Source of the DNA: Rhodospirillales bacterium 24-66-33 | GTDB lineage: Bacteria; Pseudomonadota; Alphaproteobacteria; Reyranellales; Reyranellaceae | Direction of reading: 5' to 3' | NCBI GenBank assembly: GCA_002281855.1 | Contig: NCHQ01000002.1 | Span: 124,001-188,000, forward strand | DNA: 64,000 bases | Part shown: positions 48,993-59,884 of the stretch, piece after piece | Position numbering within the stretch: the stretch's first letter is position 1 | Layout: the number at the start of each line of letters is the position of its first letter | Notes under the pieces: generated by a model | What the model saw: the letters and a program-made list of their open reading frames with translations, nothing else | What the model was told of the DNA's origin: nothing | Databases searched by the model: none | Program-made: the position numbers and the translations under genes

Positions 48993-49106
48993 GCCGTTCT
49001 CCTTTTCCGGTTGAGCCTCCGCGGGCGTCGTCCCCGACATGGGAACACCGGAGCGAGCGGCGGGATGTCTCCCCGTCGACCGCAAACCCGCGTGCGAAGT
49101 GGCGCG

Positions 49107-56907: not shown

Positions 56908-58221
56908 TCAGCCGAACCGCGCGAGGACCTGTTCGGGCGTCAGCTCCTCGCGGACGCCGGTCTTGCGGTTCTTCACCTCGAGCTTGCCCGCGGCGAGTCC
57001 CTTCGGGCCGACGATGACCTGCCAGGGGATGCCGATCAGGTCCATGTCGGCGAACTTGCCACCCGGCCGGATGTCACGATCGTCGTGCAGCACCGCGACG
57101 CCCTTGGCCGAGAGCGCGTCGTAGAGCTTCTGGCAGGCGCCGCCGACGGCACCGTCGTCCGGCTTCAGGTTGACGATCGCCACCTTGAAGGGCGCCACCT
57201 CGTCCGGCCAGACGATGCCGGCATCGTCGTGGCTCGCCTCGATGATGCCGCCGACCAGGCGCGAGACGCCGATGCCGTAGGAGCCCATCTCGACCGTGAT
57301 CTGCTCGCCGCCCGGCCCGGCGACGACCGCGTTCATCGGCTTGGAGTACTTGGTGCCGAAATAGAAGATGTGGCCGACCTCGATGCCGCGCGCGGCGAGC
57401 CGATCGCCCTCAGGCAGCGCCTCGAACGCCTTCGCGTCATGCATCTCGTCGGTCGCCGCGTAGAGCGACGTCCACTCGTTCACGATGCCCTGCAGGTCCG
57501 ATGCATAATCGATCTGGCGGCTGAGGATATCCTTGTCGACCAGGCCCTTGTGGCAGAACACGGCGCTCTCGCCGGTCTCGGCCAGGATGATGAACTCATG
57601 GCTGAGATCGCCGCCGATCGGGCCGGTGTCGGCGCGCATCGGAATCGCCTTCAGCCCCATGCGGGCGAAGGTGCGCAGATAGGCCACGAACATCCTGTTG
57701 TACGAGTGGACCGCGCCCGCCTTGTCGATGTCGAACGAGTAATTGTCCTTCATCAGGAATTCGCGACCGCGCATGACGCCGAAGCGCGGACGGACCTCGT
57801 CCCGGAACTTCCACTGGATGTGATAGAGATTCTTCGGCAGGTCGCGATAGCTCTTCACGCCATCCCGAAATAGCGTCGTGATCATTTCCTCGTTGGTCGG
57901 GCCGTACAGCATCTCGCGATCGTGGCGATCCTTGATGCGCAGCATCTCCGCCCCGTAGGCCTCGTAGCGGCCGCTTTCGCGCCACAGGTCGGCCGACTGG
58001 ATGGTCGGCATCAGCACTTCCTGCGCGCCCGCTCGGTCCTGCTCCTCGCGCACGATCCGCTCGATGTTGCGCAGGACGCGAAGGCCGAGCGGCAGCCAGG
58101 CATAGATGCCGGCGCTGGTCTGGCGGACGAGGCCGGCACGCAGCATCAGCCGATGCGAAACGATCTGCGCTTCCGACGGAGTTTCCTTCATCGTCGGCAG
58201 AAAGTACTGGCTCATGCGCAT
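56908..58221 (-). CDS. proS: prolyl-tRNA synthetase, short alphaproteobacterial form
   Basis: The protein has about 437 residues. Class II motifs are visible: motif 1 in [19 protein letters not shown] and [17 protein letters not shown], motif 2 in [21 protein letters not shown], motif 3 in [17 protein letters not shown]. Motifs 2 and 3 lie close together, so the roughly 180-residue editing insertion of E. coli ProRS is absent, as in most alphaproteobacteria; Ala-tRNA-Pro may be cleared by a separate YbaK/ProXp protein. Two near ATGs (58221 and 58215) are possible; the frame to 58335 is rejected. Confidence 0.93.
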
Positions 58222-58361
58222 GCGGAATCGGTCCTCGGTCGGGGTATCGGGATGGCGGCGGACTGTAGGGAACGGGTCGGCCAAAGGCAAACATGGACGG
58301 TACGGCTGGCTTTTCACAGCCATGTGCCCGCACACTGGGCGCGATTTTCGGGGGGAGCGGG

Positions 58362-59654
58362 ATGCTGGAGCGACTTTTCAAGCTGAGCGAGAACAACACC
58401 AACGTCCGGACCGAGCTCGTCGCCGGCCTCACGACGTTCCTGACGATGGCCTACATCATCTTCGTCAACCCTTCGATCCTTGCCGAAGCCAAGATGCCGT
58501 TCGGAGCCGTGTTCGCCGCCACCTGCGTGGCTGCCGCGGTGGGCTGCTTCCTGATGGCCTTCCTCGCCAACTACCCGATCGCCCTCGCCCCCGGCATGGG
58601 CCTCAACGCCTATTTCGCCTTCGGCGTGGTCGGCGGCATGGGCCACACCTGGCAGGTCGCGCTGGGCTGCGTCTTCATCTCCGGCATCATCTTCCTGATC
58701 ATCAGCGTGCTGCCGATTCGGGAATGGATCGTCAACGCGATCCCGAAGTCGCTGAAGATGGCGATCGCAGCCGGCATCGGCCTCTTCCTGGCGCTGATCG
58801 CGCTCAAGAACGCCGGCATCGTCATCGGCAATCCGGCGACCCTGGTGGCCCATGGCAAGATGACGAGCTGGCCGGTGGTGATGGCGGTCCTTGGCTTTGC
58901 CATCATCGTTGCCCTCGAACACCGCCGCGTCATGGGCGGCGTGATCATCGGCATTCTGGTCGTCACCGTGATCTCCATCCTGGCCGGGCATCAGAAGTTC
59001 GCCGGCATCGTCGCGACCCCGCCTTCGATCGCGCCCGTGTTCCTCCAGATGGATCTTGCCGGCGCCCTGCAGGTCGGGCTCGTGACGGTGGTCTTCGCTT
59101 TCCTGTTCGTCGACCTGTTCGACAATACCGGCACCCTGATCGCGCTGGCCCATCGCGGCGGCTTCATGCGGCCCGACGGAACCGTGCCGCGCCTGCGCGG
59201 CGCCCTCATTTCGGACAGCGCCTCCGCGATGATCGGTGCCGCCCTCGGGACATCCACCACGACCAGCTACATCGAGAGCGCCTCGGGCATCAATGCCGGC
59301 GGCCGTACGGGGCTCACCGCCGCCGCCGTCGGCGTTCTCTTTCTGCTGGCGCTCTTTCTCTCGCCGCTCGCCGGATCGATCCCGGCGTATGCGACCGCGC
59401 CGGCCCTTCTCTATGTCGCGTGCCTGATGGCCCGCGGGCTCACGGAGATCGAATGGAACGACATCACCGAAGCGGCGCCGGCGGTGATCACGGCGATTGC
59501 CATGCCCTTCACCTTTTCGATTGCCGACGGCATCGCCTTCGGTTTCATCTCGTACGCCGGAATCAAACTTGCCGCTGGCCGGTTCCGCGACATCCATCCG
59601 GCCGTCGCAATCCTCGCTGTTCTATTCGTGATCAAATATGTGGTCATTGGATGA
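58362..59654 (+). CDS. NCS2-family purine permease (AzgA/GhxP-like)
   Basis: The protein has 430 residues with about 12-14 hydrophobic segments. [21 protein letters not shown] and [16 protein letters not shown] are the opening blocks of the AzgA-like NCS2 subfamily, and [38 protein letters not shown] are substrate-site blocks. It imports hypoxanthine, guanine or adenine by proton symport. ATG 58362 follows GGGGGAGCGG. It is divergent from proS, 140 bp away, and followed by a candidate small RNA. Confidence 0.92.
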
Positions 59655-59746
59655 ACAGCGAAATGGTGCGGACATTAGTTTGTCGTCGAACGACCTCGCC
59701 GTTGCAGATTCTTCTGTTCGCCACCCAAGGATGGAAAGAAAAGGTC

Positions 59747-59775
59747 TTGGCAATTCCCAGGCGACACGCTAAACA
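59747..59775 (+). promoter_or_regulatory. possible promoter of an orphan small RNA
   Basis: TTGGCA (59747-59752) and TAAACA (59770-59775) are exactly 17 bp apart. They lie 93 bp past the permease stop and point away from every gene, at a terminated non-coding stretch. Confidence 0.4.
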
Positions 59776-59884
59776 GCCTACGCGTTGGGCGTAGCCCGAG
59801 TTTAGGGAGGAGAGCGGCGGAAGCCGCCTACGACGAGTTTCGGGGGTAGAGGACGGCGGACCACTGGTCCGCCGTTTCCTTTTT
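59776..59884 (+). ncRNA. candidate small RNA, novel
   Basis: From the proposed start (about 59780) to the terminator at 59884 is about 105 nt. Predicted parts are a CTACGC/GCGTAG hairpin (59778-59794, which may mark the 5' end), an unpaired GGGAGGAG (59805-59812), a GCGGC-GGAA-GCCGC hairpin with a GNRA-type loop (59814-59827), and a terminator hairpin. No ORF with a start codon follows the purine-rich run. It does not match 4.5S, 6S, tmRNA or RNase P RNA by eye. The downstream gene is on the other strand, so it is not a leader. Confidence 0.4.
59853..59884 (+). terminator. strong intrinsic terminator of the candidate small RNA
   Basis: ACGGCGGACC (59853-59862), ACT, GGTCCGCCGT (59866-59875) is a perfect 10-bp stem followed by TTCCTTTTT. 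The T tract exists only on the + strand, so it is directional. It is about 200 bp past the permease stop. Confidence 0.85.

Follow-up and report, generated by a model that had tools for sequence, protein, structure and literature searches.

A small RNA (sRNA) of about 103 nt, encoded on the plus strand at 59782..59884 of the window (the whole stretch of 64,000 nucleotides analysed here), is likely to be a stand-alone, CrfA-like sponge (anti-sRNA) whose main role is directed at the sRNA MmgR, because an invariant and exposed element of the RNA is a perfect 18-nt complement of the MmgR core. It is close to certain on comparative grounds that the locus is a real sRNA gene, under selection and equipped with a promoter and a terminator of its own. 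The host lineage, Reyranella, is a soil and water bacterium, and nearly all Alphaproteobacteria use alphaR8 sRNAs (MmgR, SisA-D) to adjust carbon storage and the uptake of nutrients.

Gene anatomy, promoter and fold

The sRNA gene region, from promoter through terminator, occupies 59747-59884 on the plus strand, within the gene order proS (minus), permease (plus), sRNA (plus) and DUF1467 (minus). The upstream neighbour is an NCS2 xanthine/uracil-type permease ORF (58293..59654, plus, stop at 59654), while the convergent DUF1467 gene (PF07330; 59912..60157, minus) serves as the synteny anchor. The other end of the syntenic interval is formed by the ORF of proS, proline--tRNA ligase (56908..58335, minus), the true start of which probably lies near 58227. 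Elsewhere in the window, 48993-49096 on the minus strand matches the Rfam family RF01815 (rpsB sRNA) with 41.9 bits against a cut-off of 40.

The promoter consists of a -35 hexamer TTGGCA (59747-59752), read in the sequence, and, 17 nt further on, a -10 hexamer TAAACA (59770..59775; family consensus TAnAnA), the pair that the first-pass annotation had placed exactly and that conservation in 30 orthologs now backs. Together with the A-rich sequence in front of it, the -35 region forms a 21-nt block, GGAAAGAAAAGGTCTTGGCAA (59733..59753, plus), with 99% mean identity and 18 of its 21 columns invariant among these orthologs, giving the layout GGAAAGAAAAGGTC-TTGGCA-17-TAAACA. The spacer itself has a mean identity of 61%, its length of 17 nt being constant in 30/30 orthologs with no indel, and is followed by TAnAnA as the motif of the -10 position. 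The promoter is missing from the list of a consensus scanner because it fits the sigma-70 consensus poorly. The nearly invariant A-rich part at 59733-59746, directly 5' of the -35 and peculiar to this promoter within the genome, may be an UP element or, alternatively, a regulator site. A regulon sharing the A-rich/-35 element was considered and rejected, a single weak second site being present within 3 mismatches in the same genome. Further 5' of the promoter, conserved palindrome-like motifs are found at 59674-59698 and ~59712-59722, reading GGACATTwGTTTGTCGTCGAACGA, with AACAATTGTTC in most relatives, and these may be operator sites controlling the sRNA.

The ends of the RNA are placed from the -10 spacing (5') and the terminator tail (3'). 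Folding of a 109-nt RNA yields -54.8 kcal/mol compared with -40.6 +/- 3.4 for shuffled sequences (z -4.1). The structure contains a first hairpin P1, GUUGGGC-GUA-GCCCGAG (59784..59800, plus; 7 pairs; genus consensus CUUGGGC-GCA-GCCCGAG), an unpaired linker UUUAGGGAGGAGAG between the hairpins (59801..59814, plus; 13/14 columns invariant in 30 orthologs), a second hairpin P2, GCGGC...GCCGC (59814..59827, plus), a second conserved purine-rich block GAGUUUCGGGG (59835..59845, plus; 97% mean identity) and an intrinsic terminator, GGACGGCGGACC-ACU-GGUCCGCCGUUU followed by CCUUUUU (59851..59884, plus). The second purine block resembles the first, GAGUUUAGGGAGG. Two hairpins had been proposed at first pass; P2 holds, with 100% of cells paired across orthologs, whereas the proposed first hairpin, CTACGC/GCGTAG, pairs in 67% of cells and gives way to CUUGGGC/GCCCGAG (59784-59800) as the conserved first stem. 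The strong terminator with a T tract is real, having 12 pairs and a T-rich tail.

Taken together, the three stems (P1, P2 and terminator) are paired in 99.3% of cells. The first-pass annotation had suggested a search with Infernal against Rfam and an ortholog alignment as its check, which returned no Rfam family and compensatory changes at six pairs in all, one in P1 (G-C to A-U; 99% of cells paired), two in P2 and three in the terminator. Cells in which both sides of a pair had changed number 26, compared with a shuffle mean of 7.8, and no shuffle equals the observed value. Conservation of the terminator alone, which the same annotation regarded as fatal to its proposal, is not the pattern found: promoter, P1, P2 and linker are conserved too, and identity drops to 58% 3' of the terminator. 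The conserved promoter, its fixed spacing, the stems and the terminator thus provide good comparative support for an independent transcription unit, as initially proposed.

A coding gene was rejected. The purine run GGGAGGAG is unpaired, as first noted, and also invariant across relatives, it is followed by no ATG, GTG or TTG, again in agreement with the initial reading, relatives differ by 1-2 nt (non-triplet) indels, and the locus has no ORF of its own. Rfam holds no family for the RNA, either at the gathering cut-off or at E up to 10, consistent with the earlier view that it is unlike housekeeping RNAs, and a BLAST comparison with plasmids gave no match to it. Xoo2 (RF02241) was discarded as a candidate, scoring 22.7 bits against a cut-off of 45 in a match driven by the terminator stem.

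Relatives of the gene are found throughout the genus and family. A 246-bp query has BLAST matches in 35/61 genomes, every one of the same genus, and a covariance model built from 30 orthologs matches 62 of the 75 genomes of the family (Reyranellaceae) at E <= 0.001, with divergent copies at 51-79 bits still keeping the linker and GUUUCGGGG blocks. Pattern matches to the sRNA fall in Reyranella, Enhydrobacter aerosaccus and other alphaproteobacterial records. The description "orphan" was therefore dropped: besides these relatives in its genus and family, the gene has a partner RNA, and elements akin to it stand at the same place in many Alphaproteobacteria.

Complementarity to MmgR of the same genome

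The 15-mer CRAGTTTAGGGAGGA has two copies only in the genome, one in the sRNA locus and one antisense in the gene for the MmgR/suhB sRNA (RF00519; G000:C19:130264-130336, minus strand; 63.5 bits, cut-off 41). This gene adjoins, and lies downstream of, the gene for FGase (N-formylglutamate amidohydrolase), the usual location of alphaR8 (PMC12559287). The RNA is antisense to MmgR across 18 consecutive bases, GCCCGAGUUUAGGGAGGA (59794..59811, plus), an anti-alphaR8 element composed of the invariant unpaired stretch and the adjoining stem arm of P1. MmgR carries its exact reverse complement and so differs in polarity, the window RNA being no member of the MmgR/suhB/alphaR8 family. In MmgR, the complement spans the anti-Shine-Dalgarno (anti-SD) loop and the 5' side of the terminator stem, covering all of the single-stranded anti-SD core UUUCCUCCCU but its two leading U, of which one remains able to pair with G. 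The duplex at this site has an energy of -45.2 kcal/mol, compared with -19.3 +/- 3.5 for shuffles, 0 of 2000 being as low; the test was made at the level of the site, and whole-sequence duplex energies discriminated poorly between windows. A second MmgR site at GAGUUUCGGGG was tried and rejected, 16% of shuffles being equally good. A weak second alphaR8-like match in the genome, at G000:C9:52449-52527 (minus), scores 34.4 bits and falls under the cut-off of 41.

In the 37 genomes of Reyranellaceae that have both RNAs, the MmgR core is nearly invariant opposite the element, and substitutions in the element mostly retain pairing through G-U. Exceptions are an extra U (GAGUUUUAGGG) in several Reyranella genomes, which leaves an uninterrupted helix of ~12 pairs, and single element mismatches in a few Reyranellaceae genomes. 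The first-pass annotation had supposed that GGGAGGAG pairs with pyrimidine-rich segments of mRNA, and it was right as to the kind of partner, while mRNA is replaced by the MmgR/alphaR8 sRNA as the best predicted one, to which the complementarity (18 nt) is longer than the purine run.

In the proposed mechanism, the sRNA, once transcribed, would pair with MmgR, and Hfq, for which the genome has a gene, is the probable platform. Pairing would mask the UUUCCUCCCU loop, with which MmgR is expected to contact the start regions of mRNAs; MmgR would then be inactivated or destabilised, with relief of its targets as the expected result. Expression, pairing in the cell and the effect on MmgR are predictions from sequence, and the mode of action is modelled by analogy on that of CrfA on SisA-D. 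Loss of MmgR in S. meliloti raises PHB accumulation (PMC7143759), making a role in carbon/nitrogen balance the natural first test.

The DUF1467-proS interval and competing explanations

Weak matches of the covariance model (R1) in other families, at loci L036, L039 and L116, led to a shared motif beyond the genus. DUF1467 is present in 271 of the 385 alphaproteobacterial genomes sampled, and 3' of it the motif recurs in many families, always on the antisense strand. The related elements of many Alphaproteobacteria lie in the DUF1467-proS interval, antisense to both genes; sample-wide motif counts, made by eye, are ~2x those of a reversed-pattern control. In genomes with multiple copies, the extra motif copies have RF00519 on the opposite strand. 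The weak R1 matches L037, L038, L040 and L107-L115 were set aside as terminator-only; of these, L107-L115 mark a recurrent RNA-like locus of several Reyranella genomes, with a strong GGCCGGG terminator and without the anti-alphaR8 element.

Families differ in the strand that bears a terminator. In f1, f31, f122, f94 and f97 it is found only on the strand bearing GGGAGGA (sponge polarity), in f136, f17, f108, f100 and f5 an alphaR8-type terminator is present on the other strand, and f136 and one f17 genome have terminators on both. Four DUF1467-adjacent loci of f136 and f17 (L187, L189, L191 and L197), with terminators on both strands, combine an alphaR8-like RNA with an RNA of sponge polarity encoded opposite to it, possibly as a cis-antisense pair. 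Since the opposite strand of this interval encodes an alphaR8-like RNA in f136, f17, f108, f100 and f5, the shared motif can reflect common descent of the DNA instead of selection for pairing.

Elements fit their own genome's alphaR8 more closely than that of other genomes (R = A or G; AGUUU/AAACU or AGUCU/AGACU), with a UCAG/CUGA variant in the element and own alphaR8 of f59. A swap test gave p 1.5e-4 for 13 genomes and 4e-4 with one genome per lineage, by a statistic that ignores the tree and relatedness; the alphaR8 of f41 was taken from a sister genome, and f59, f11 and f44 were entered without strand assignment. Co-variation of element and alphaR8 between lineages is, by this test, suggestive and not final.

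This co-variation bears on the strongest competitor of the sponge reading, by which the RNA is an independent trans-acting sRNA whose Shine-Dalgarno (SD)-like GGGAGGAG pairs with pyrimidine-rich mRNA or with other CCUCC sRNAs, the match to MmgR being a side effect of SD/anti-SD complementarity. The purine run is indeed invariant and unpaired, MmgR belongs to the anti-SD type of sRNA (PMC7143759), and the GGGAGG part of the complement would suit any anti-SD sequence equally. However, the perfect complement runs 10-11 nt past the SD-like GGGAGGA and includes GCCCGAGUUUA, bases without SD meaning, and the element appears to co-vary with alphaR8 between lineages, so that this explanation is improbable.

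Still less probable is an origin in the permease mRNA, with the locus as its 3' UTR and terminator or as the source of a processed sRNA, in place of a separate transcription unit. The same-strand permease stop codon lies 92 nt 5' of the -35 and no intrinsic terminator is listed between it and the sRNA, as such an origin would have it, but a conserved -35/-10 pair of fixed spacing stands directly before the RNA, and both RNA and element also occur in lineages with different upstream genes. Of a comparably low order is the view that the functional RNA is encoded on the minus strand as a degenerate alphaR8/MmgR paralogue, with incidental features on the plus strand. The alphaR8-like RNAs on that strand of the same interval in f136, f17, f108, f100 and f5 lend it some substance, whereas the window locus gives no suhB (RF00519) match at E up to 10 (cut-off 41 bits), no minus-strand terminator stands beside the motif in Reyranella, and the conserved -35, 17-nt spacer, -10 and T-tailed terminator are all features of the plus strand. 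Binding of a protein such as the GGA-motif binder CsrA through AGGGAGGAG would accord with two GGA motifs in the exposed inter-hairpin linker, but GGA sites are few and the invariant block reaches well beyond them, leaving this explanation very improbable.

Comparison with ar9 and with known sponges

The rhizobial RNA ar9/sra32 (Rfam RF02343; also called smrC9 in S. meliloti and ReC25 in R. etli) has been seen on Northern blots since 2007 but has had no function assigned. In S. meliloti, sra32/SmelC289 adjoins proS on the opposite strand (PMC2245857, PMC3927594). Northern blots showed the RNA in three genera, with two predicted targets, fliM and a cytochrome oxidase (PMC2245857); the literature consulted gives ar9 neither a function nor a sponge role. 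It shares with the window RNA the DUF1467-proS interval and the polarity opposite to proS, its consensus CAAgUCuUGGGAgGA being the counterpart of GAGUUUAGGGAGGAG in the window. For the conserved ar9 block CAAGUCUUGGGAGGA the window has CGAGUUUAGGGAGGA, with 12/15 positions identical, an equivocal resemblance. Against the suhB consensus UcCUCCCUAgACUU, the ar9 consensus CAAgUCuUGGGAgGA is complementary at 13/14 positions with one U-U mismatch. An ar9-like RNA of genome G413 (f41), matching RF02343 with 35.3 bits, below the cut-off of 45, lies in the DUF1467-proS interval, divergent from proS and antisense to both DUF1467 and proS, and contains GCCCAAGUUUGGGGAGGG.

As to differences, a permease separates the sRNA from proS in the window, and ar9 has 149 positions (~130-150 nt) with five to seven stems, compared with ~103 nt, two hairpins and a terminator. 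Membership of RF02343 needs at least 45 bits; a search found no match in the window region (E up to 10) and none in its genome, and a direct search among ~230 genomes gave none above the cut-off. On a comparison that uses the Rfam consensus and the 35-bit G413 relative in place of authentic Rhizobiaceae loci, the window gene is a reasonably probable positional ortholog of ar9, a term preferred to ar9 member because place, polarity and element are common to both but the model and the multi-stem architecture fail. In that case ar9 would also be an alphaR8 sponge. The wider proposal is tentative, the balance tipping slightly against it: that the DUF1467-proS interval houses an ancient, Alphaproteobacteria-wide anti-alphaR8 RNA (ar9 in Rhizobiales, the window RNA in Reyranella, and others in further families), and that ar9 serves rhizobia and relatives of Brucella as their MmgR sponge.

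Against Rfam 15 and the literature consulted, novelty seems to attach to the RNA family, to its location and to the link with ar9, while the sponge mode of action is already known from one species, in which CrfA was reported as an alphaR8 sponge in 2025 (PMC12559287). If the readings above are true, alphaR8 sponges are no speciality of Caulobacter and have a fixed genomic place in many Alphaproteobacteria, ar9/sra32 is directly testable as an MmgR sponge in S. meliloti, a standard laboratory strain, with UUUCCUCCCUAAACUCGGGC as the candidate protected site in pairing, and lineages in which each strand of the locus is a gene, one for an alphaR8 copy and one for the antisense of that copy, would show how a sponge arises.

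QrrX of Vibrio, SroC, 3'ETS-leuZ and AgvB (listed in PMC12559287) resemble the window RNA as RNAs sequestering a regulatory sRNA, but are unrelated in sequence, partner and host. CrfA (CCNA_R0093) of Caulobacter crescentus is an Hfq-bound sponge of SisA-D (alphaR8), induced by carbon starvation, whose residues G49-C63 pair with the SisA-D core, so that CrfA removes SisA-D, with compensatory mutations proving the pairing (PMC12559287); transcription of crfA starts at minus-strand position 3,781,500 of NA1000 (PMC5988900). Compared by its published description, CrfA differs in having its site in the second stem loop, whereas that of the window RNA is formed by the linker and P1 arm. Both are stand-alone sRNAs in which a segment rich in G and A is the complement of the alphaR8 core UUUCCUCCCU, and both are matched to the same partner family, alphaR8 with an FGase-linked copy. 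In the window RNA, the extended complement to the alphaR8 of the same genome is perfect over 18 nt, and conservation supports a promoter and Rho-independent terminator of its own.
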